Of a stretch of DNA of 32,367 bases, positions 6,075 to 31,896 are shown piece by piece. The stretch lies in the NCBI GenBank assembly GCA_012718915.1, contig JAAYBI010000066.1, positions 1 to 32,367 on the forward strand, in the 5' to 3' direction. Each line of letters opens with the position of its first letter. The stretch's first letter is position 1. The translations under genes and the position numbers were made by a program. The notes under the pieces are model-generated. The model was not told the origin of the DNA, ran no database searches, and saw only the letters and a list, made by a program, of their open reading frames with translations. Source of the stretch: Clostridiaceae bacterium. GTDB lineage: Bacteria > Bacillota > Clostridia > Saccharofermentanales > Saccharofermentanaceae.

Positions 6075-6339
6075 TACAGATGCTCTGGCAGGTGAGAATT
6101 TCAGCCTACAAACGAAGTTCTAGCGATCTAGGCTGTAAATTTGAATTGCTAGTTTTTTCAGAGAGTGGGGAAGTACAGCCTAGAATCGAAGTTCTGGTGC
6201 TCTAGGCTGTAAATTTGCCGATTACAGCCGCTCTGACAGGTGAGAATACAGCCTAGAATCGAAGTTCTAGCGATCTAGGCTGTAAATTTGCCGATTACAG
6301 ATGCTCTGGCAGGTGAGAAGTACAGCCTAGAAAAGCATT
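6075..6339. repeat. 73/74-bp tandem repeats with long palindromic core (three full, one truncated copy)
   Basis: Each unit has a 39-bp core, TACAGCCTAGA...TCTAGGCTGTAA, whose arms pair to form a hairpin, followed by a linker containing TTTGCCGATTACAG, CTCTG and CAGGTGAGAA. Cores lie at 6100-6138 (linker diverged), 6174-6212 and 6247-6285. A fourth core starts at 6321 but matches only to about 6332 and then runs into the IS3 end at 6340. Partial linker copies lie at 6075-6098, 6224-6246 and 6297-6319. The region is non-coding and lies directly after the permease. It looks like an extragenic palindromic repeat family, and could help termination or act as a protein or transposase target. Confidence 0.85.
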
Positions 6340-6655: not shown

Positions 6656-6680
6656 TCTCTGAGTCGCGAAACGTTTCGTC

Positions 6681-6911
6681 CTCCGGCAAATGTCGCCCAC
6701 TTCGTCGTCCTCCGGCAAATGTCGCCCGCTCCGACACCCTCCGTTAAATGTCGCCCACTCCGTCGTCCTCCGGCAAATGTCGCCCACTTCGTCGTCCTCC
6801 GGCAAATGTCGCCCGCTCCGACACCCTCCGGTAAATGTCGCTGCGCCTCGCCCCGCCGGCAAATGTCGCCCACTCCGCCGCCCTCCGGCAAATGTTGCCC
6901 ACTCCGCCGCG
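6681..6911. repeat. 29-bp minisatellite, eight head-to-tail units
   Basis: Units begin with CTCCGGCAAATGTCGCCC or a close variant at 6681, 6710, 6739, 6768, 6797, 6826, 6854 and 6883. The period is 29 bp, with one 28-bp step. The last 11 bases alternate between a few types (CACTTCGTCGT, CGCTCCGACAC, CACTCCGTCGT, CACTCCGCCGC) and the order suggests that a block was duplicated. Because 29 is not a multiple of 3, no reading frame is conserved, so the long frames open on both strands here are a by-product of composition. It ends about 175 bp before the TIR gene. Confidence 0.9.
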
Positions 6912-7085: not shown

Positions 7086-10000
7086 ATGAAATACGACGCG
7101 TTTATCAGTTATCGACACGCACCGATGGATATAGCAGTTTCTGAGCAGATACATAAGCGATTAGAGAACATACGTGTACCGAGGTCTATACGCAAATTAT
7201 CGGGCAAGAAAAAAATCGAGCGTGTCTTCCGGGATCAGGAAGAACTGACGGTGTCGTCGAGCTTAAGTGAAGAAATACTGACTGCACTGGATGAGTCTGA
7301 ATACTTGATTGTTATTTGCTCACCACGAACACCGGAGTCTGAGTGGGTCGAGAATGAGGTATCCTACTTCATCAGAAAGCACGGACGTGAGCGCATTTTG
7401 CCTGTTATTATCGAGGGAGAGCCCAAGGATTCCTTCCCCAAGCCGTTGCTTTTCGAGGAGCGTCGCGAGATTGACGTTCACGGTGAGACTTATGTCTATG
7501 AGACCATCGCTGAGCCCTTTGCGGCGGACTATCGCGCACCGGATGAGAGGACGAGAAAGCAAGTTATCAAGAGAGATATTCTCCGCTTGGCGGCGCCGAT
7601 TCTCGGTTGTCGTTACGATGACTTGAAGCAAAGACATCGTGAACAGAGGAATCGGCGTATCGCACTCGGCGTTACAGCGTTTGCGGTGTTGGCCGTTGTT
7701 TTCGGTATATACAATTACATTCAGAATCAAAAGATTATCGAAAATTATAGAAAGCAACAGAAGACGCAGTCGCTGTTTTTGGCGGATACGTCATTGAGAT
7801 TACTTGAGTCAGGGGATCGCACCAATGCGATTCTGGTTGCACTTGAAGCACTGCCCAAGGATTTGGAGAATCCCGAGCGTCCGGTGATGCCGCAGGCAGA
7901 ATACGCTTTATCGAATGCGCTGCATGCATACGCGGCGGGTTCGGAGATGGTGCCGGATTATTCAATTGAGCATCAGGATGTGCTGACGGATAATGTTCAG
8001 GCTTCGGGTGATGGAAATACTTTTTGCGCACTCGATCAAAGGGGAGTTCTGAATTTATTTGACGTTACAAAAGGGACATTAATCAGTGAGATAAGCGCCG
8101 ACACAGAAGCAATTTCGACGAATCGAATTTATGATTATGTTTTTGCAGATGAGCGAGTAGTCGCGTTTTCTGCGGTGGATATTCTTTGTATTGACGGAGC
8201 GGATGGATCCACGATATGGAGTATGCGGTATGATAAGGCAGACCCCACGTATAAGACATCTTCCTATTCTCGAGAACCTAATTTTGCAGTGAGTGAAGAT
8301 GGTTCAACACTGGCATATAGTTTTGCCTATTCCGATTGGATCTATGTTTTGGATATGAATAACGGTCAAGTAATAAACAGGATTCGGATGGATAATATTG
8401 ATGTCTTATTGACAGATATTGTGCTTTCAAAGGATGGATCGAAGATAGCGGTCGTTAATTCGGATATGACGTCGGATGATATATTACCCCTGGTTCGGAT
8501 TTTTGATTCGGTTTCTGACCAGTTGATTTCAAGCATTGAACTCAACTATTCATACAACTTTTTTGTAGAATTTGCTCCCGATGATCGACTGATATGCGGA
8601 TCGAACGATTATTCAATTTGGGATGACCCGTCAAAGCAGATCAAAATTGAGTTGGCATGCTTCGATTGGCGTGACGGATCCTTGCTGTGGCTTACGGAGG
8701 AACGGGTGACAAGTTCAGTAGCGGATTTTGTGATTAGCCAGGTGAAGCTGATTATTTCCGAAGAAGCCGGGAACCATATTTTGCTCGTTGTCGAAAACCG
8801 CGTATTTCTTTTCGACCTTGAAAATGGAGAAAAAGAGACGGAAAAGATCACTTCTACTGAGATTGTCGGTCTCGCGATGAATAAAGATACCGGGTTTTAT
8901 GTTTCTATGACCGATATGGGGCAAACCAATTGGGGAGATTTATATACCGGAAGAGATTATCAGGATTTAGACTTCAAAATAGATGCCAATATCATGAGTT
9001 TTGTTGGTGCGTCCAATCATATTATTATTGTGCCGGACTACTCCAAGTCGATGATGGTTTTTTCCTATTATCTGGCACCGGGATTCGAGACTGTGGATGA
9101 GCTGAACTCAGAATATAGTTACCTGCTGTTTTCGAAAAGTCCGGACAATCGATACTTACTCTTCGAAAAATTTAATGATGATTCGACGTTTGTTTGGATA
9201 TTTGATACTTTGTCTGAAGAGGTTGTCTGCGATACTCAAGTGCGGTATTTAATTGAAGGCGCGATTTTTGAAGAAGACGGTGTTTTTCTGGCAATGTACG
9301 ACGGAACGGTTGAATATGTCGACTTTGCGTCGGACACGACGGAAACCATCTATCAGGATGAAGACGCTTACTTTACATGTCGTACGAATGAAGATCAAAC
9401 CCATTTTGTGTTTGATGCAGCATCGAGAGTTTTTCTGTATTCCACAGAGAAGCGGGAAGTCGTTCTAGACTTGAAGACAGAAATTAATGAGAAAGTCGTT
9501 GCTGTTTCCGGTGATGCGAAATACTTGATAATGAGCGGAGACGAAGGACTTTTCGCAATCAACACCGAAGATAATTCGCATGTCGAATTGGAAGAACATA
9601 TTGAATTATCATCGGGGTATTTTGTTCAGATTGCATTTGCACAGGATCAGCCATACGCAGCAATTCCGGCCGCAGACCAATACATCCACATTGTCGATCT
9701 CGAAAGCGGCAAAACGATTTCTTTGATTGTGGGCATGAACAACAACATTTTTTCCGGCTACTTCATTGATGCGGACCAGACGTTTGTGTTTCACTCCGAT
9801 GACTATCGTATTCGCGCGGCCGACGTGAAGAGCGGAGAGTTGGTCTATACCGGCAATGAACTTATAAACAAGATTAGCCGATGGGAAATTAACTCAGATC
9901 GCAATTTGTTTTTGGCAGTGTCAACCGCAGAAACCATCATTTTCAGTGTTAAGGACGGCATCTATCCCGTCGCAGTCATACCCTATTTTGTGGGTTTTGA

Positions 10001-10154
10001 TAAGGATGCAAAATACGTCTATATCAAGGATAATTTCGGCTTCGGCCGATTCCCGTACCGTGAATTGAAGGACTTGTATCAGATGGCAGAGGATGTATTG
10101 GGCGGTAAGAATTTGTCCGCTGAGAATCGGATTAAATACTACATTGATAGCTGA
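7086..10154 (+). CDS. Membrane-anchored TIR-domain protein with C-terminal beta-propeller-like region
   Basis: 1022 aa. Residues 1-145 form a TIR domain: it opens with YDAFISYRH, has the RVFRDQEEL segment, a YLIVICSP strand and SEWVENEV, where Glu91 stands four residues after Trp87, the position of the catalytic glutamate in TIR NAD-hydrolases. A basic stretch (RHREQRNRR, about 183-191) precedes a single membrane helix at about 192-210, which predicts a cytoplasmic TIR domain and an outside C-terminus. Residues about 222-275 are helical (ALEALP segment). The remaining 750 residues contain repeated strands of the form 'FDLENGE' and 'DGSTLAYS', as in WD40/PQQ-like propellers. Related TIR-helix-propeller proteins occur in Clostridia; their function is not established. 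The start has only a weak ribosome binding site (AGGGCAGG, 7072-7079). It stands alone, and no Thoeris-type partner is visible nearby. Confidence 0.88.
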   Translation: MKYDAFISYRHAPMDIAVSEQIHKRLENIRVPRSIRKLSGKKKIERVFRDQEELTVSSSLSEEILTALDESEYLIVICSPRTPESEWVENEVSYFIRKHGRERILPVIIEGEPKDSFPKPLLFEERREIDVHGETYVYETIAEPFAADYRAPDERTRKQVIKRDILRLAAPILGCRYDDLKQRHREQRNRRIALGVTAFAVLAVVFGIYNYIQNQKIIENYRKQQKTQSLFLADTSLRLLESGDRTNAILVALEALPKDLENPERPVMPQAEYALSNALHAYAAGSEMVPDYSIEHQDVLTDNVQASGDGNTFCALDQRGVLNLFDVTKGTLISEISADTEAISTNRIYDYVFADERVVAFSAVDILCIDGADGSTIWSMRYDKADPTYKTSSYSREPNFAVSEDGSTLAYSFAYSDWIYVLDMNNGQVINRIRMDNIDVLLTDIVLSKDGSKIAVVNSDMTSDDILPLVRIFDSVSDQLISSIELNYSYNFFVEFAPDDRLICGSNDYSIWDDPSKQIKIELACFDWRDGSLLWLTEERVTSSVADFVISQVKLIISEEAGNHILLVVENRVFLFDLENGEKETEKITSTEIVGLAMNKDTGFYVSMTDMGQTNWGDLYTGRDYQDLDFKIDANIMSFVGASNHIIIVPDYSKSMMVFSYYLAPGFETVDELNSEYSYLLFSKSPDNRYLLFEKFNDDSTFVWIFDTLSEEVVCDTQVRYLIEGAIFEEDGVFLAMYDGTVEYVDFASDTTETIYQDEDAYFTCRTNEDQTHFVFDAASRVFLYSTEKREVVLDLKTEINEKVVAVSGDAKYLIMSGDEGLFAINTEDNSHVELEEHIELSSGYFVQIAFAQDQPYAAIPAADQYIHIVDLESGKTISLIVGMNNNIFSGYFIDADQTFVFHSDDYRIRAADVKSGELVYTGNELINKISRWEINSDRNLFLAVSTAETIIFSVKDGIYPVAVIPYFVGFDKDAKYVYIKDNFGFGRFPYRELKDLYQMAEDVLGGKNLSAENRIKYYIDS

Positions 10155-24397: not shown

Positions 24398-24573
24398 AAT
24401 AATCTCCTTTTCGATCGTCCTGCCGGGGCGTCTCGTAAAATCGGAGACGCAGTGAAGTGATATGAATAAAAATACTCGAAAATTATGTATATTGAAAGTA
24501 GCAAAATTGCAATCTCTAAATGACTGTGATTTAAATGCCCTCATGTTATGATTTTGAAGAGGAGGGTGATGAC

Positions 24574-25245
24574 ATGATTTTTTCTGAGAAGTTGCATATA
24601 TTGAGGAAGAGCAAAGGCTTGACGCAGGAGGAACTGGCCGAAAAACTCAATGTGTCCCGGCAAGCGGTGGCAAAGTGGGAATCCGGCCAAGTTTATCCGG
24701 ATATTTCGAACTTGATTCAGATCAGTTTGCTCTTGAATGTCACAATTGACTATTTGGTAAAGGATCAGGAGTGTGCCAAAATTCCCGTAAGCGATGAGCC
24801 CACTCCGTGTAACGAATTGATACGTTTCCGCCTCGAGGCCAATATCAACACTTATGCAGCGATGATAAACGAGGTCGATTCGACGCGCTTGGATTCGCAC
24901 GATTTTCAATACTCGCGCGGAGACTACACTTATCACGACACCTATGTCGGCGGCGAGCAGTTTGCCGGGCAAGAAGCGATTTGGAAAAATGGAAGCGCGG
25001 TCTACGCTATGAACTACATTGGCAGAGTGTTAGACGAGAAATTCAGCGGTAATTTCCTCAAAGAAGCTTTGCGAGCCGCCGACGAGACCATGCCTTATCG
25101 CGGACCGGAATACTACGCCTCCGGAGAATATGTTTATAAGTGCAGTGTCGCCGGCGATTTTAAATGGTTTCAAGGCTATGAGGAAATCTATTACTTGGAC
25201 GAGAAAATATATGAGTGTTATTTTCATGGCGGTTTGACGAGATAA
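24574..25245 (+). CDS. XRE-family regulator with C-terminal DUF5680-like sensor domain
   Basis: 223 aa. ATG 24574 is preceded by GAGGAGGGTGA; an in-frame ATG at 24535 lacks one. Residues 3-62 form a typical XRE HTH (LRKSKGLTQEELAEKLNVSRQAVAKWESGQVYP). Residues about 90-223 carry the pattern of DUF5680 (LIRFRLEANINTYAA, YRGPEYYASGEYVYKCSVAGDFKWFQGYEEIYY), a domain found only behind XRE or alone. Members of this group are predicted ligand-responsive regulators. Target genes cannot be told; the divergent zinc-ribbon gene at 24397 is the nearest candidate. Confidence 0.9.
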   Translation: MIFSEKLHILRKSKGLTQEELAEKLNVSRQAVAKWESGQVYPDISNLIQISLLLNVTIDYLVKDQECAKIPVSDEPTPCNELIRFRLEANINTYAAMINEVDSTRLDSHDFQYSRGDYTYHDTYVGGEQFAGQEAIWKNGSAVYAMNYIGRVLDEKFSGNFLKEALRAADETMPYRGPEYYASGEYVYKCSVAGDFKWFQGYEEIYYLDEKIYECYFHGGLTR

Positions 25246-26737: not shown

Positions 26738-27396
26738 CTACTTGTTTACAGTAATTGCTGAGGTGATTAATTGATTCATTTCGGCTTCTTCATCAATGTA
26801 GGTGTCTTTCAAAGAACCCGCTGTGCCATAGCAAAGTGTTGAATCAATATAAAACAAGAAATAGGTCATTCTCATCTCCATGTCGGAAATCGATACATCA
26901 AAAGTAAACTGAATTGCTTCAGTGCCGTTCATGTCATAAATTGCAGGCTCGCTGATGACGGCATAGCCTTCAAACGCAGAAGCGAGCATAGACGAATAAA
27001 ATTCGGCATCCGCTTCCAGATCACCGGATCCGTTATATGCATCACTCAAGACAATAAAGGTCGAGACGTTTTTTGATATTGAAAAAGTGCTGTAGAAGCG
27101 GTGTTTTCCTCCCAGCCTTCGGGTACGGTCACTGTCATCATTGATTTGAAATCAGAGGTTGAACCTGTTGCGGAAGTCGTCGCTTCGGTAGATTCCTCCG
27201 TTGTGGCCTCCGTGGTCTCTTCGGTCGTGGCGTCGGTGGTCTCTTCGGTCGTGGATTCGGTGGTCTCTTCGGTTTCCTCAGTCTCCTCGGTTTCCTCACG
27301 ATTGGACTTGCGATCGTCATCGTCGTCTACAAGGTTACATGCGGACATGCCAAGAACAAGGGATAAAGAAAGTAGTGCTACCAGAAATTTTTTCAC
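26738..27396 (-). pseudogene. Lipoprotein gene split by a one-base frameshift in an A6 run
   Basis: A GTG at 27396 (AAGG 8 nt upstream) opens a 116-codon frame with signal peptide and lipobox MSAC (Cys20), an Asp cluster, and a long Glu/Thr linker. This frame enters a folded domain (TVTVPEGWEENTASTALFQYQK) and stops at 27046. The other frame, ending at 26738, encodes the rest of the domain (SDAYNGSGDLEADAEFYSSM, then TYFLFYIDSTLCYGTAGSLK). Adding one A to the A6 run at 27074-27069 (minus strand) joins them as QKNVSTFIVLSDAYN and gives a 219-aa protein with no stop. The whole has the same build as the lipoproteins at 1443 and 14873. It may be a sequencing slip, a real null mutation or a phase-variable switch. 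Confidence 0.85.
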
Positions 27397-27745
27397 AATA
27401 AATACCTTGCCTTTCAAAATAGTTAAAAAAAGTGCCATGTCAAATCATAAAATGACTTTGAAGTATTTCCGATTATATGCTTACTTTTCAAAATTTACCA
27501 TCGTACGAAGTATGATTTTATAAAAATATCCATTTCTACGAATAAATCGTGCATTCAATTCTTATGATTGTTCATTTTTACGAGATTCTGCGGCTAAAAC
27601 TGAAGTGCAAATAAATCCATTTGATTTCACGGATACCTTCATTGATTGAAAACTTCTCACATATAGCTTATTATTTTCATAATTCTATAATATGAGCAGC
27701 TACAATTATCATTAAAGTAAAAATTGAAGTAAATGAGGAAATACT
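27397..27745. other. AT-rich divergent intergenic region
   Basis: It separates the split lipoprotein (leftward) from the five-gene operon (rightward). It contains a TATAAT at 27686-27691 on the plus strand, with no good -35 at 17 bp. No hairpin, ORF with ribosome binding site or repeat stands out. Confidence 0.4.
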
Positions 27746-28084
27746 GTGACAAATGATGATACAGATCAATCGCCGGTATCTATTTCAAAAGATGATTCCG
27801 AATCGGGTGAATCGCGCGCATCTGAGAGACAATCCGTTCGCCTGGATGTTGCTTCGGAATATAAGGATGACGGCGTCAAACCCGGCAAGAAAACCAAATT
27901 CAAGTGGCCGTCCGCTTTGGCGATACAATATTTTGCTTTTTTTGCATTTTTTATTCTCATTCAAGTTGCATCCGGCAGAATAGCGGATACAAAGGCAATG
28001 ATTGGCCCTATTTTCTTCTTAATATTGCTTATAGTTGTATTCAATTTGATTCGGAAAGGAACAAAGAGTAAGAAGGATAAATAA
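27746..28084 (+). CDS. Small two-helix membrane protein of the DYR-WWG operon
   Basis: 112 aa. GTG 27746 follows GAGGAAATACT. Residues 1-50 are polar and low in complexity, then the motif SVRLDVASEYKDD (30-42) and a basic stretch, followed by two membrane helices (about 56-75 and 85-102) with a short loop and a basic C-terminus. The L-D-V-x-x-E-Y motif plus two helices recurs in the genes at 29015 and 30644. It is the first of five genes separated by 15-45 bp. No known family is recognised. Confidence 0.8.
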   Translation: MTNDDTDQSPVSISKDDSESGESRASERQSVRLDVASEYKDDGVKPGKKTKFKWPSALAIQYFAFFAFFILIQVASGRIADTKAMIGPIFFLILLIVVFNLIRKGTKSKKDK

Positions 28085-28099
28085 TCAGAGGGTGGGCAA

Positions 28100-28993
28100 A
28101 TGCGCGATCGAATGACAGACATTAGTTTGCTTGGAGATGAAGAACTCTATCGCTTGTGTTTGGGGGCAATTAAGAATCATTCTTTTGGCGAGGCGGAAGA
28201 GTACGCGAGAGAATTTATTCGCCGGTTTTCCGGAGATTATCGGGCGCATGTCTGTATCTTAGAAGCCTTGTCGAATGACTTTAACATTGCCCGGGCGCGT
28301 ACGCACGAGACCAGTGAAGCCATGAGAAAAATTCGAGTTATGGCGCCTTCTCATGTGGTAGAAGTGATTGAAAAACAATATCAGGCATGGGTCTCGACGC
28401 CGCCGATAGATTCCGATAGAGAGATGGAGAATCTGACGGAAATTGCTCAAATACAATTGGTCGATGAGAAAAGATATCTGCCGGAAGCAGATCCGTATAT
28501 TGATTTTTCAGCGGACCAACTTGATGAGAAAGGCATTCAGTATATTCATGAAAAGAATTATCTTGATGCTGCAACGGTATATCAATCTTATGCTATTCGA
28601 TTTCCTAAGGACTATCGCGCATGGTGGGGAAGATTGAGAGCGATAAGCCAAGACTTTTCCTGTGTTCGAAGACCGAAAAATGCCGGCATATATTTTCATA
28701 AATTCAGATATACGGCGCCCAAAGCAGTCTCGGAAGCCTGGGCTGAGAAGTATTTTTCCTGGTCAAAAAATAACCGGATGGCACCCAATAGAATGCAGTA
28801 TGAAGCTCTGATGAAAGAAGTTCGCCATCAGCATATTCGCAAGAGTGGCAGACAAGTATTCATAGCTGAACACTATTATGATCTTGTTAGTAACTCCACG
28901 GGGCAGCATGCCTATACAATTATGCTTCGCGGGTTGGGTTTCATGGTACAGGTGATCGCTTGGATCGTGCTCATCATATTGGTTTTGATGTGA
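28100..28993 (+). CDS. Protein with two DYR-type TPR-like modules and a C-terminal membrane helix
   Basis: 297 aa. Two copies of a roughly 85-residue module: residues 12-98 (FSGDYRAHVCILEALSNDF, later MAPSHVVEVIEKQYQAW) and 137-222 (FPKDYRAWWGRLRAISQDF, later APKAVSEAWAEKYFSW). Each begins with a TPR-like helix pair ending in an aromatic-Pro-x-DYR turn. The second copy keeps the W-W-G-R-L-R-A core, while the first has drifted. A single membrane helix at about 278-297 ends the protein, so it is probably tail-anchored with the modules in the cytoplasm. Start ATG 28100 has GAGGGTGGG upstream. The module also occurs in the next two genes. Function unknown. Confidence 0.82.
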   Translation: MRDRMTDISLLGDEELYRLCLGAIKNHSFGEAEEYAREFIRRFSGDYRAHVCILEALSNDFNIARARTHETSEAMRKIRVMAPSHVVEVIEKQYQAWVSTPPIDSDREMENLTEIAQIQLVDEKRYLPEADPYIDFSADQLDEKGIQYIHEKNYLDAATVYQSYAIRFPKDYRAWWGRLRAISQDFSCVRRPKNAGIYFHKFRYTAPKAVSEAWAEKYFSWSKNNRMAPNRMQYEALMKEVRHQHIRKSGRQVFIAEHYYDLVSNSTGQHAYTIMLRGLGFMVQVIAWIVLIILVLM

Positions 28994-29014
28994 CATTGGC
29001 TTTTGGAGGGATGA

Positions 29015-29602
29015 ATGGAAAAATCAGAGCAGATGCTACAGCAGGCCGATGAATTGCTGGCTGCAAAGGAATACATGGCGGCATCGAAATCTTTCTCAGT
29101 CGGAATCGAGCAGTTTCCGAATGATTATCGTTTTTTTTGGGGCGCTCTCCGAGCCGAAACTGAAGATTTTCAAAGGGCGGAGAAGAGCCACGAGGCAGCA
29201 GCGCTTTATCGACAGGCCATGGTATTGGTGCCGGATGAAGTGCGATCGGAATTAGCAGATGCATATCAGGAATGGACTAATTATATAGCCCTCAAAAAAG
29301 AGGAAAACGAGAGACGAGCGAAAGTAGAAGAAATTCGGCCGGGACATAAAATGTCGCTGGATGTCGATAAAGAATATCGTAATATGAATATGCCAACGCC
29401 TTCGAAAAGTCGGTTCAGCATTCCTCAACCGGTAGCATTTCTAGCGTACTTCCTATTAATTATCATTGTTTACATCGGTCAGGTGGCGGAGGCGGATCAG
29501 ATCGGCTTCATTATTGCGGCACTAGTCGGCATTGGAGTATTATTTGTTTTGATTGTTGTCATATGGAATGCGTACATCATTTTTCGCAACAGATTGAAAT
29601 AA
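29015..29602 (+). CDS. Fusion of a DYR TPR-like module with the LDV two-helix membrane module
   Basis: 195 aa. Residues 4-90 are one TPR-like module (FPNDYRFFWGALRAETEDF, then LVPDEVRSELADAYQEW). Residues 113-121 hold the motif MSLDVDKEY, as in the 27746 and 30644 proteins, and two membrane helices follow (about 139-156 and 163-190). The protein thus joins the two modules that are on separate chains elsewhere in the operon. GGAGGG stands about 5 nt before ATG 29015. An out-of-frame ATG at 29011 has no use. It lies 21 bp after the previous gene. Confidence 0.82.
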   Translation: MEKSEQMLQQADELLAAKEYMAASKSFSVGIEQFPNDYRFFWGALRAETEDFQRAEKSHEAAALYRQAMVLVPDEVRSELADAYQEWTNYIALKKEENERRAKVEEIRPGHKMSLDVDKEYRNMNMPTPSKSRFSIPQPVAFLAYFLLIIIVYIGQVAEADQIGFIIAALVGIGVLFVLIVVIWNAYIIFRNRLK

Positions 29603-29647
29603 CGATCAATTCCATTTTTTCGAAGAGCTTGAATCTGGAGGATGATT

Positions 29648-30625
29648 ATGGATTCTATTCAGGTGAAATGTCCGGGATGCGGTCAGGTGGTTCTCATTGA
29701 GCAGGGCAAAAAACGAGAGTCCTGTAATAAATGCAGCACATGGGTCGATGTCCGCGATGCGGTGAAAGTCTCTGATTTGGAGGTGTCTACGACCGTTATG
29801 GACACTCCGGCAATTGCGGTGCCTCTCGTTTCGACAGGCGCATCTCTTGTTGAAGATAAAACTTTAGCGATGCAGAAGGCTTCGCCGGCTCCGATCGTTC
29901 CGGAAGCTCCCGGGGTTTCTTCGGTGCCTATCGATGAAGTTGAGACTCACTCTAATCCTCCCCAACAAGCTATTCGTCTTGAGTTGAAGGAAGCACCCGA
30001 TTTTCCCGTTGCCGAGAATATAGATGTAGAATTGAAGGAAAATGTAAATTTCTCTGCTGAGGACAAGACAGAAACGTTGGTTTCTGATTGCGAGAGACTT
30101 TTTAATGAAGGCACTGCTCTTCTTGAGCAAGGAAGATATCCGTTGGCGGAGAAGATATTCATCGCGATGTCGCTTCAGTATCCGGATGACTATCGAGGAT
30201 GGTGGGGCAGGCTGCGAGCATCAAGCAAAGATTTCAAAGCCCGCGAAAAAAAAGAGATCACCAAAGAATATATGATGAAGGCAAGCTCTCTGGTGCCGGA
30301 TGAAGCGCTGAAATTTCAAATGCGCAAAAAATACAACGATTGGCTCAGAGACCTGGCCGTAGCGAGGGTTAAACGGCAGAGTCGCATACCCGAATCATCA
30401 TATAAAAAGATTGACGATGCGGCTGAACCGATGGACTACACCGTAAAACCCGTCAGAACTTCCGGAAACTGGAGTAAATCCTGTGTGATTGTACCAATAG
30501 CATTCGTTTTGCTTTTCTTGATGTTTATCATCTCGCTGATGCAAGGATCTCCTGCCCCGATCATTACTCTTTTGATTATCGTTGGCGCCATCGTTGCTTT
30601 CGCAAATAAGGATGGTTCAAACTAA
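29648..30625 (+). CDS. Zinc-ribbon protein with DYR TPR-like module and two membrane helices
   Basis: About 325 aa. ATG 29648 has GGAGG at 29636-29640 (7-nt gap); ATG 29642 is too close to it. Cys8, Cys11, Cys26 and Cys29 form an N-terminal zinc ribbon. A long low-complexity linker (about 40-144) follows, then the TPR-like module at 145-236 with YPDDYRGWWGRLRASSKDF and LVPDEALKFQMRKKYNDW. Two membrane helices lie at about 279-299 and 303-319. The linker holds two LELKEAPDF/VELKENVNF-like segments. It is the fourth gene of the operon, and the zinc ribbon suggests contact with nucleic acid or protein on the cytoplasmic side, though this is only inference. Confidence 0.82.
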   Translation: MDSIQVKCPGCGQVVLIEQGKKRESCNKCSTWVDVRDAVKVSDLEVSTTVMDTPAIAVPLVSTGASLVEDKTLAMQKASPAPIVPEAPGVSSVPIDEVETHSNPPQQAIRLELKEAPDFPVAENIDVELKENVNFSAEDKTETLVSDCERLFNEGTALLEQGRYPLAEKIFIAMSLQYPDDYRGWWGRLRASSKDFKAREKKEITKEYMMKASSLVPDEALKFQMRKKYNDWLRDLAVARVKRQSRIPESSYKKIDDAAEPMDYTVKPVRTSGNWSKSCVIVPIAFVLLFLMFIISLMQGSPAPIITLLIIVGAIVAFANKDGSN

Positions 30626-30643
30626 CCAGTATAGGAGAACTAT

Positions 30644-30979
30644 ATGAAAGACAGACAAATTGAAGAACAAAGAGATCCGGATGCCATAGAGACTAAGGAA
30701 GAATCCGAGCATACAAATGCCGTGCCGCTAAATATTGATACGGAATTTCGGGAATTGCGGCGTAAAGAGTGGGCAAAGCACATTTTTTACATTCCAGCCG
30801 GAGCAAGAAAGTTTATGTTGATTTCGGCGTGCATATTTTTAATGCTTGCCGCTACACCACAAAACGATATATTTGATTTAATTCAATCCTTGGGATTATA
30901 TTGTGTTCTTGTTGTAATCGTTGTCGTATCTGTCATTTCCTTCAATATCTATCGTGTTTTTTTCGAGAAAAGCAAATAA
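30644..30979 (+). CDS. Small two-helix membrane protein, last gene of the DYR-WWG operon
   Basis: 111 aa. AGGAG stands about 8 nt before ATG 30644. A polar N-terminus (DRQIEEQRDPDAIETKEESE) leads to AVPLNIDTEFREL (26-38), matching the LDV-E-Y motif of the 27746 and 29015 proteins with conservative changes. Helices span about 56-72 and 83-104. It begins 18 bp after the zinc-ribbon gene. It ends 23 bp from the convergent acetyltransferase, with no clear terminator. Confidence 0.8.
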   Translation: MKDRQIEEQRDPDAIETKEESEHTNAVPLNIDTEFRELRRKEWAKHIFYIPAGARKFMLISACIFLMLAATPQNDIFDLIQSLGLYCVLVVIVVVSVISFNIYRVFFEKSK

Positions 30980-31002: not shown

Positions 31003-31896
31003 TCATGCTCTGGATAGAGTCGGAAATCGTAATTGCTTTTCGTCAAAAGTCTCGAAGGCGGCCCCTTTTACGAATAATGTAGTATTCTCTTCTTCCGATA
31101 CCGCCTTGCTGAAACTGTCCCTTTCCAAAGGGGCAAATCCAAGTTCTACGTTTTGGAACTTTGATCCGAAAGCGGAAATTATCGCATCGAGATCACCGTG
31201 TGTTCCCGAAAAAACATGGTGCAGAAACAAAGAGTCTCCTTCTTCTTCAGCGACCACATAGGCGTCTTCTTTAGCGATGTAATATACATTCTCTCGCATG
31301 AACTGGGACAAGTAAAATAAGACCAAACCTTCGTTATTGCGCAGATCCAGAGCACTTTGAACTCCGGACTCGCGGATGGCGCGAATCGTTCGAGTCAGGT
31401 GATCGGGATTACTCATATCGAGCGGTTCAACTGTCCGGTCTTCGGATCGAGAATTAGGGATATCGCTGATCAAAGACCTGGAGAATGTGTATTCGTCGGC
31501 TTTTCGAAAACCGAATTTCGGATAGAAGTCTACGACGCTGTCGTTTGCAAAAAGATAAAAGCCGTCTGCGATCTCGCTGTAATCCTTTAGGATCTCTTGT
31601 ATCAGTATTTTCGAAAAGCCTCTTCCCCGGAAGGCTTCCGATGTCATGACCGTGCCGATCTGAATGAATTTTTTCGATTCGCCGAACATGTCAAAATCCA
31701 TAATATTTGCTGAAGCGTTTGCTACAACTTCTCCTTCGATGACGACGGTGTAAGGGATATAACGATCGGTCCAGTACCCGTGGAGATACCAAGGTTCAAA
31801 ATCCAAGCTGAAAGTCGCTTTTGACAGAGCGCTAAAACTTAATCTCAAGCTCTCGTGCTCGCGGACGTTTTTGAATATCTCAAAATTATCGTTCAT
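31003..31896 (-). CDS. Two-domain GNAT acetyltransferase
   Basis: 297 aa. The first half is a GNAT fold: VVIEGEVVANASANIM strand, IGTVMTSEAFRGRGFSKILIQ acetyl-CoA loop (R-G-R-G-F), and FYPKFGFRKADEYTFSR. The second half (about 155-297) is a second GNAT-like or related domain with no clear loop (FLHHVFSGTHGDLDAIISAFGS), the layout seen in GNAT proteins that carry a degenerate second copy, such as Eis-like or DUF4081-like enzymes. ATG 31896 has a weak GGGGATGG before it. The substrate is unknown. Confidence 0.82.
   Translation of the reverse strand: MNDNFEIFKNVREHESLRLSFSALSKATFSLDFEPWYLHGYWTDRYIPYTVVIEGEVVANASANIMDFDMFGESKKFIQIGTVMTSEAFRGRGFSKILIQEILKDYSEIADGFYLFANDSVVDFYPKFGFRKADEYTFSRSLISDIPNSRSEDRTVEPLDMSNPDHLTRTIRAIRESGVQSALDLRNNEGLVLFYLSQFMRENVYYIAKEDAYVVAEEEGDSLFLHHVFSGTHGDLDAIISAFGSKFQNVELGFAPLERDSFSKAVSEEENTTLFVKGAAFETFDEKQLRFPTLSRA

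Follow-up and report, generated by a model that had tools for sequence, protein, structure and literature searches.

A five-gene cluster of membrane proteins with TPR-like modules related to a widespread zinc-ribbon family in a Clostridiaceae bacterium

Organization of the gene cluster

The window, by which we mean the whole stretch of 32,367 nt that was analyzed, is contig 54 of a Clostridiaceae draft genome of 2.2 Mb that is 96% complete. It carries a cluster of five ORFs on the forward strand (positions 27746-30979), which are separated by intergenic gaps of 15, 21, 39 and 18 bp and are each preceded by a GGAGG-like site. All five frames are intact, and no stop codon or frameshift occurs in any of them. 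The first gene (27746-28084, 112 aa, with a GTG start) and the fifth (30644-30979, 111 aa) encode hairpin-only proteins, in which a short charged segment is followed by two membrane helices and which carry the motifs LDVASEY and LNIDTEF, respectively. The second gene (28100-28993, 297 aa) encodes two TPR-like modules, referred to here as DYR modules, and one C-terminal membrane helix, and the third (29015-29602, 195 aa) encodes one DYR module fused to an LDVDKEY two-helix hairpin. The fourth gene (29642-30625, 327 aa) encodes a zinc ribbon (CPGC...CNKC), a linker, a DYR module and two membrane helices; its start is possibly at 29648, because the Shine-Dalgarno spacing is better there. The ribbon, putatively TFIIB-like, has four cysteines and is predicted to bind zinc. 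Outside the cluster, an acetyltransferase gene on the reverse strand (31003-31896) served as a synteny marker.

This layout agrees with an original prediction made for the window, which had described five close-set genes, a zinc ribbon among their products, and a protein encoded at 29015 that joins both of the shared modules. The same prediction had placed paired helices in the membrane; this does not hold for protein 2, whose single C-terminal helix is a tail anchor.

A TPR-like module is shared by three of the proteins

Four DYR modules of ~90 residues are present in three of the cluster proteins, at residues 6-103 and 131-228 of protein 2, 1-94 of protein 3 and 143-240 of protein 4. Within a database of just six short module sequences, an all-against-all BLAST search matched the four window modules to one another at E-values of 2e-15 to 3e-6, so that the number and distribution of modules originally described (four in three proteins, two of them in one) were borne out. 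Six module copies, comprising the four window modules, a paralogue and a copy from a sister species, all have D41, Y42, R43, L49, D55, P77, Y89 and W92 in common; copy 1 of protein 2 no longer has the WG and LRA portions of the motif.

AlphaFold predicts the module of protein 3 with a pLDDT of 93-98 as five helices (residues 2-16, 20-33, 38-48, 59-71 and 74-107), and in this predicted structure the helix-turn-helix repeats are packed as in TPR domains. For protein 2, the predicted structure is confident for the second module only, and a sequence search of this protein against the PDB gave no match. Among the best 50 matches found by Foldseek in the PDB, almost all were TPR proteins (probability about 1.00), with E-values of only 0.03-0.2, modest values of the kind expected when a short helical domain is part of a longer query. 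As judged from these models, the module fold is TPR-like, in agreement with the helical repeats first proposed, and its sequence is not that of a standard TPR. Its helix-pair fold is common to TPR domains (Pfam TPR_16 and TPR_14), but the cluster module has only about two repeats and falls below the Pfam gathering scores, the best Pfam TPR score being 19.9 bits as compared with a gathering score of 32.7. Whether the modules are plain TPRs of a named family had been posed as a check on the prediction, and no Pfam TPR model matched at its gathering score.

A membrane hairpin is shared by proteins 1, 3 and 5

Proteins 1, 3 and 5 carry the LD[VI]xxE[YF]-type motif and two helices that had been noticed in three proteins of the cluster. 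Because a chance copy of this motif also occurs in an unrelated leucine-rich protein encoded in the window, the motif on its own is weak and unspecific. When whole hairpin tails were compared, they scored above shuffles that keep the hydrophobic pattern, with z = 6.3 for proteins 1 and 3 (0/1000 shuffles), z = 5.3 for proteins 3 and 5 (0/1000) and z = 3.0 for proteins 1 and 5 (13/1000). Positive charge is found both before and after the hairpins of these three proteins, which argues that both ends are inside and that the modules should therefore face the cytoplasm, a charge pattern in keeping with the earlier assignment of the soluble parts to the inside.

Protein 4 also ends in two helices, and its tail resembles that of a 413-aa paralogue encoded on contig 55 of the same genome (hereafter C55; z = 6.1). 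No kinship was detectable between the tail of protein 4 and the LD[VI]xxE[YF] hairpin (profile comparison probability 6%), and the five proteins thus do not all share one anchor. The match of this tail to the tails of the wider family described below was not significant by profile comparison. A derivation of the LD[VI]xxE[YF] hairpin from the tail of the family itself was also considered, and was unsupported by profile comparison of the tails.

In genomes of the taxonomic family (115), class (291) and order (188; the sets overlap), a hairpin profile retrieved the three copies of this genome only. One could picture the hairpin as a small membrane anchor of a new kind, through which proteins 1 and 5, being anchors only, would pair with the TPR-bearing proteins 2, 3 and 4; the outcome would be a membrane scaffold of a new type, of recent origin in a single genus and derived from the zinc-ribbon/TPR family. 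We regard this picture as unlikely.

The modules descend from a widespread zinc-ribbon/TPR-like family

A search with the module profile in the taxonomic family and class identified outside relatives of the cluster proteins, namely proteins of about 250-420 aa that have a zinc ribbon and, in the middle, a related module. The cluster module aligns with these relatives over 89 columns (hhalign probability 99.2, E 6.8e-20), and a profile built from the outside relatives only recovers the modules of C55 and gene 4 at 7.5e-11 and 2.7e-10, respectively. C55, of which gene 4 is a paralogue, consists of ribbon, linker, module and two helices, in the same order as in protein 4. Its orthologue in one sister species (DUPM01000076.1, a Clostridiaceae metagenome assembly) is 62% identical and has the same order of parts; between the two, the ribbon and the module show low dN against dS, with dS near saturation. 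That sister species was the sole find in a collection scan with module alignment A2.

When 41 modules were placed in a tree, those of the genus, six in number, grouped together (support 89/91; 86% of bootstraps). Their group sits inside the DYR/GWWG-type clade (100/99) and points to a genus-level expansion. Branches there are long, the longest being that of copy 1 of gene 2, and the order of duplications is therefore unsure. By profile homology and tree placement, the central DYR/DxRGWWG TPR-like module is present in proteins 2, 3 and 4, and the modules share common descent with the wider zinc-ribbon/TPR-like family. The N-terminal CxxC...CxxC ribbon occurs in protein 4 only and is absent from proteins 1, 2, 3 and 5; protein 4 is accordingly filed as a family member and the other four as derivatives.

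The original view of the cluster as an unnamed system stands in that no Pfam, NCBIfam or PADLOC family matched the cluster proteins at cut-off, the PADLOC models of anti-phage defense systems giving weak partial matches only (E 0.0015 and worse, for proteins 4 and 5). It does not stand for the modules, which belong to a widespread family of zinc-ribbon/TPR-like/membrane proteins with many paralogues. Literature searches for a zinc-ribbon/TPR-like membrane family yielded nothing direct.

We surveyed 24 loci of this family, 20 taken from the top of the match list and four chosen, all of which (24/24) carry a family protein. Genes of the family occur in tandem, in twos or threes, at 4/20 top-list loci and at 3/4 chosen ones; some copies are ribbon-less (L115, L078) or helix-less (L115, L121), and some long family proteins carry two modules. 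Up to about 19 module matches were found per genome, and 93/115 genomes of the taxonomic family had matches to profile A7, an upper estimate because this profile mixes two subtypes and catches generic TPRs. Matches of ~630 aa near topoisomerase genes (e.g., L060 and L073) were set aside because they belong to a generic repeat protein distinct from this family. Gene 4 matches the wider family (e.g., L041, L042, L102, L104, L075) in the order of its parts, all modules are homologous, and the tandem copies and the loss of ribbon or helices seen in the cluster are seen in the wider family as well. Unlike the cluster proteins, however, the relatives have coiled-coil-like stretches around their helices, and neither the LD[VI]xxE[YF] hairpin nor hairpin-only genes nor the five-gene set were found in the wider family. 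The family is large and no curated name was found for it; if the function of even a single member were established, a large number of genes could be annotated.

One family gene (L020, contig 23 of genome G104) lies among conjugative-element-like genes, and some members may therefore be mobile. For the cluster itself, carriage by mobile elements was considered and rejected: protein 3 had no match in phage records or IMG/VR, and protein 4 had none in plasmids.

The five-gene order is not conserved

The cluster was seen in one draft genome. Among the same overlapping sets of 115, 291 and 188 genomes of the family, class and order, none other had the five-gene layout, and the module profile at strict scores detected single, distant genes only. 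In a sister genome, the flanking acetyltransferase gene is 78% identical and lies 120 bp from the end of its contig. Within these 120 bp, a 74-bp stretch is 81% identical to the sequence where genes 2 and 3 meet (28961-29033, forward strand), the alignment score being 76 as compared with 30 for the best of 200 shuffles. This junction, the sole part of the cluster on the sister contig, indicates that gene 2 is, or at one time was, present at the site; the remainder of this gene was not found in the sister assembly, and genes 3-5 do not lie between the junction and the acetyltransferase gene. The gene order is thus not conserved, since nothing of the cluster but this junction is kept at the sister site, and the two species therefore differ in cluster content. 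Recurrence of the five-gene order had been proposed as a check on the prediction; no other genome searched showed it, and the sister species has a shorter version of the site. A match in genome G056 ran through three stop codons, covered the tail only and was disregarded.

On contig 22 of the sister genome G001 (L009, L071), the acetyltransferase gene lies ~11 kb from a zinc-ribbon/TPR-like gene, with a sugar-transport locus between them; contigs 54 and 55 of the source genome are probably neighbors in the same way.

The five products might form a true membrane complex, in which the shared hairpins would assemble and the TPR parts would make up a cytoplasmic platform. Tight gene spacing, the hairpin common to proteins 1, 3 and 5 and the joining of module to hairpin in protein 3 speak for such a complex, whereas gene order and content are not conserved, the full set being missing from all other genomes searched and the sister having a reduced version, and we give a five-subunit complex a low probability. 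The five products may bind each other, a possibility to which only their gene neighborhood and shared hairpins point. The fused protein had been taken as proof that the two modules work together, yet protein 3 shows only one joining event.

It is likewise improbable, in our assessment, that the cluster is a by-product of duplication, with one or two genes working like the parent zinc-ribbon protein and with decaying or neutral pieces in the form of genes 1 and 5 and of module 1 of gene 2. All five intact frames have ribosome-binding sites, which argues against decay, although the sister species lost genes 3-5 at this site or never had them, and motif residues have been lost from copy 1 of gene 2, which forms the longest branch. 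Genes 1 and 5 could be leftovers.

A model of membrane-anchored adaptors

The interpretation that we favor, with moderate confidence, is that a genus-level tandem expansion with domain shuffling, within the widespread zinc-ribbon/TPR-like/two-membrane-helix family, produced the cluster, whose products are most likely membrane-anchored cytoplasmic TPR-like adaptors. Rather than a conserved machine discovered for the first time, the cluster seems to be a product of local reshuffling within a widespread, unstudied family. It is a general property of TPR domains that they bind short stretches of partner proteins. In our model, proteins 2, 3 and 4 would hold small TPR-like adaptor domains at the cytoplasmic face of the membrane, the TPR-like grooves would bind short segments of partner proteins, and the zinc ribbon of protein 4 may add a second contact. 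Proteins 1 and 5 would act as anchor-only partners that have the hairpin of protein 3 and may pair with that protein in the membrane. The cluster itself is a local curiosity; it illustrates how exchange of ribbon, adaptor and anchor rebuilds proteins of this kind.

Possible regulators near family genes

At 4/24 surveyed loci there is also a gene for a helix-turn-helix (HTH) protein whose zinc ribbon is of the family's type (probability 94.6, 33 columns), and some of the tandem, domain-shuffled clusters of the family lie next to such putative regulators. At two of these loci, L076 (8723-9391) and L107 (8719-9663), an Xre-type HTH is combined with a zinc ribbon, and the gene lies 44 and 116 bp, respectively, from zinc-ribbon/TPR-like genes; the protein at L107 also has membrane helices. 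These neighbors suggest a link with regulation. The zinc-ribbon/TPR proteins could be imagined, on the membrane side, to relay an envelope signal to a DNA-binding partner, with the cluster as a variant of this relay, and the short distances of ribbon-bearing HTH genes from family genes in related genomes, together with the membrane helices of one of their products, are in line with this idea, as are published envelope-stress systems that join zinc ribbons to membrane domains (PMC11237479). However, the HTH/zinc-ribbon gene occurs at only 4/24 loci, HTH genes of this class are common, and the HTH gene of the window (24535-25245) is 2.5 kb away and lacks the zinc ribbon, and we consider such a signaling role quite improbable. 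In PSP/YdjFGHL-type envelope-stress modules (PMC11237479), Firmicutes zinc ribbons are joined to membrane segments, as in the cluster, but no PspA, Band-7, NTF2-like or TPM domain was matched in the cluster, and the likeness is in layout only.

Other features of the window

Upstream of the cluster, on the reverse strand, a lipoprotein-like gene (26738-27438) appears split at about position 27046 into ORFs of 130 and 103 aa, which is probably a frameshift or an assembly error; the gene contains a 12/24-bp repeat in an acidic-threonine linker. A forward-strand gene at 7086-10154 encodes a protein of 1022 aa whose N-terminus is TIR-like (the PADLOC matches being weak, E about 2e-5) and in which a membrane helix is followed by a repeat-rich C-terminal part. 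Two repeat arrays lie close to each other, one at 6676-6910, composed of a 29-bp unit (CCTCCGGCAAATGTCGCC...) present eight times in tandem, and the other at 6075-6332, composed of a 74-bp unit repeated 3.5 times.
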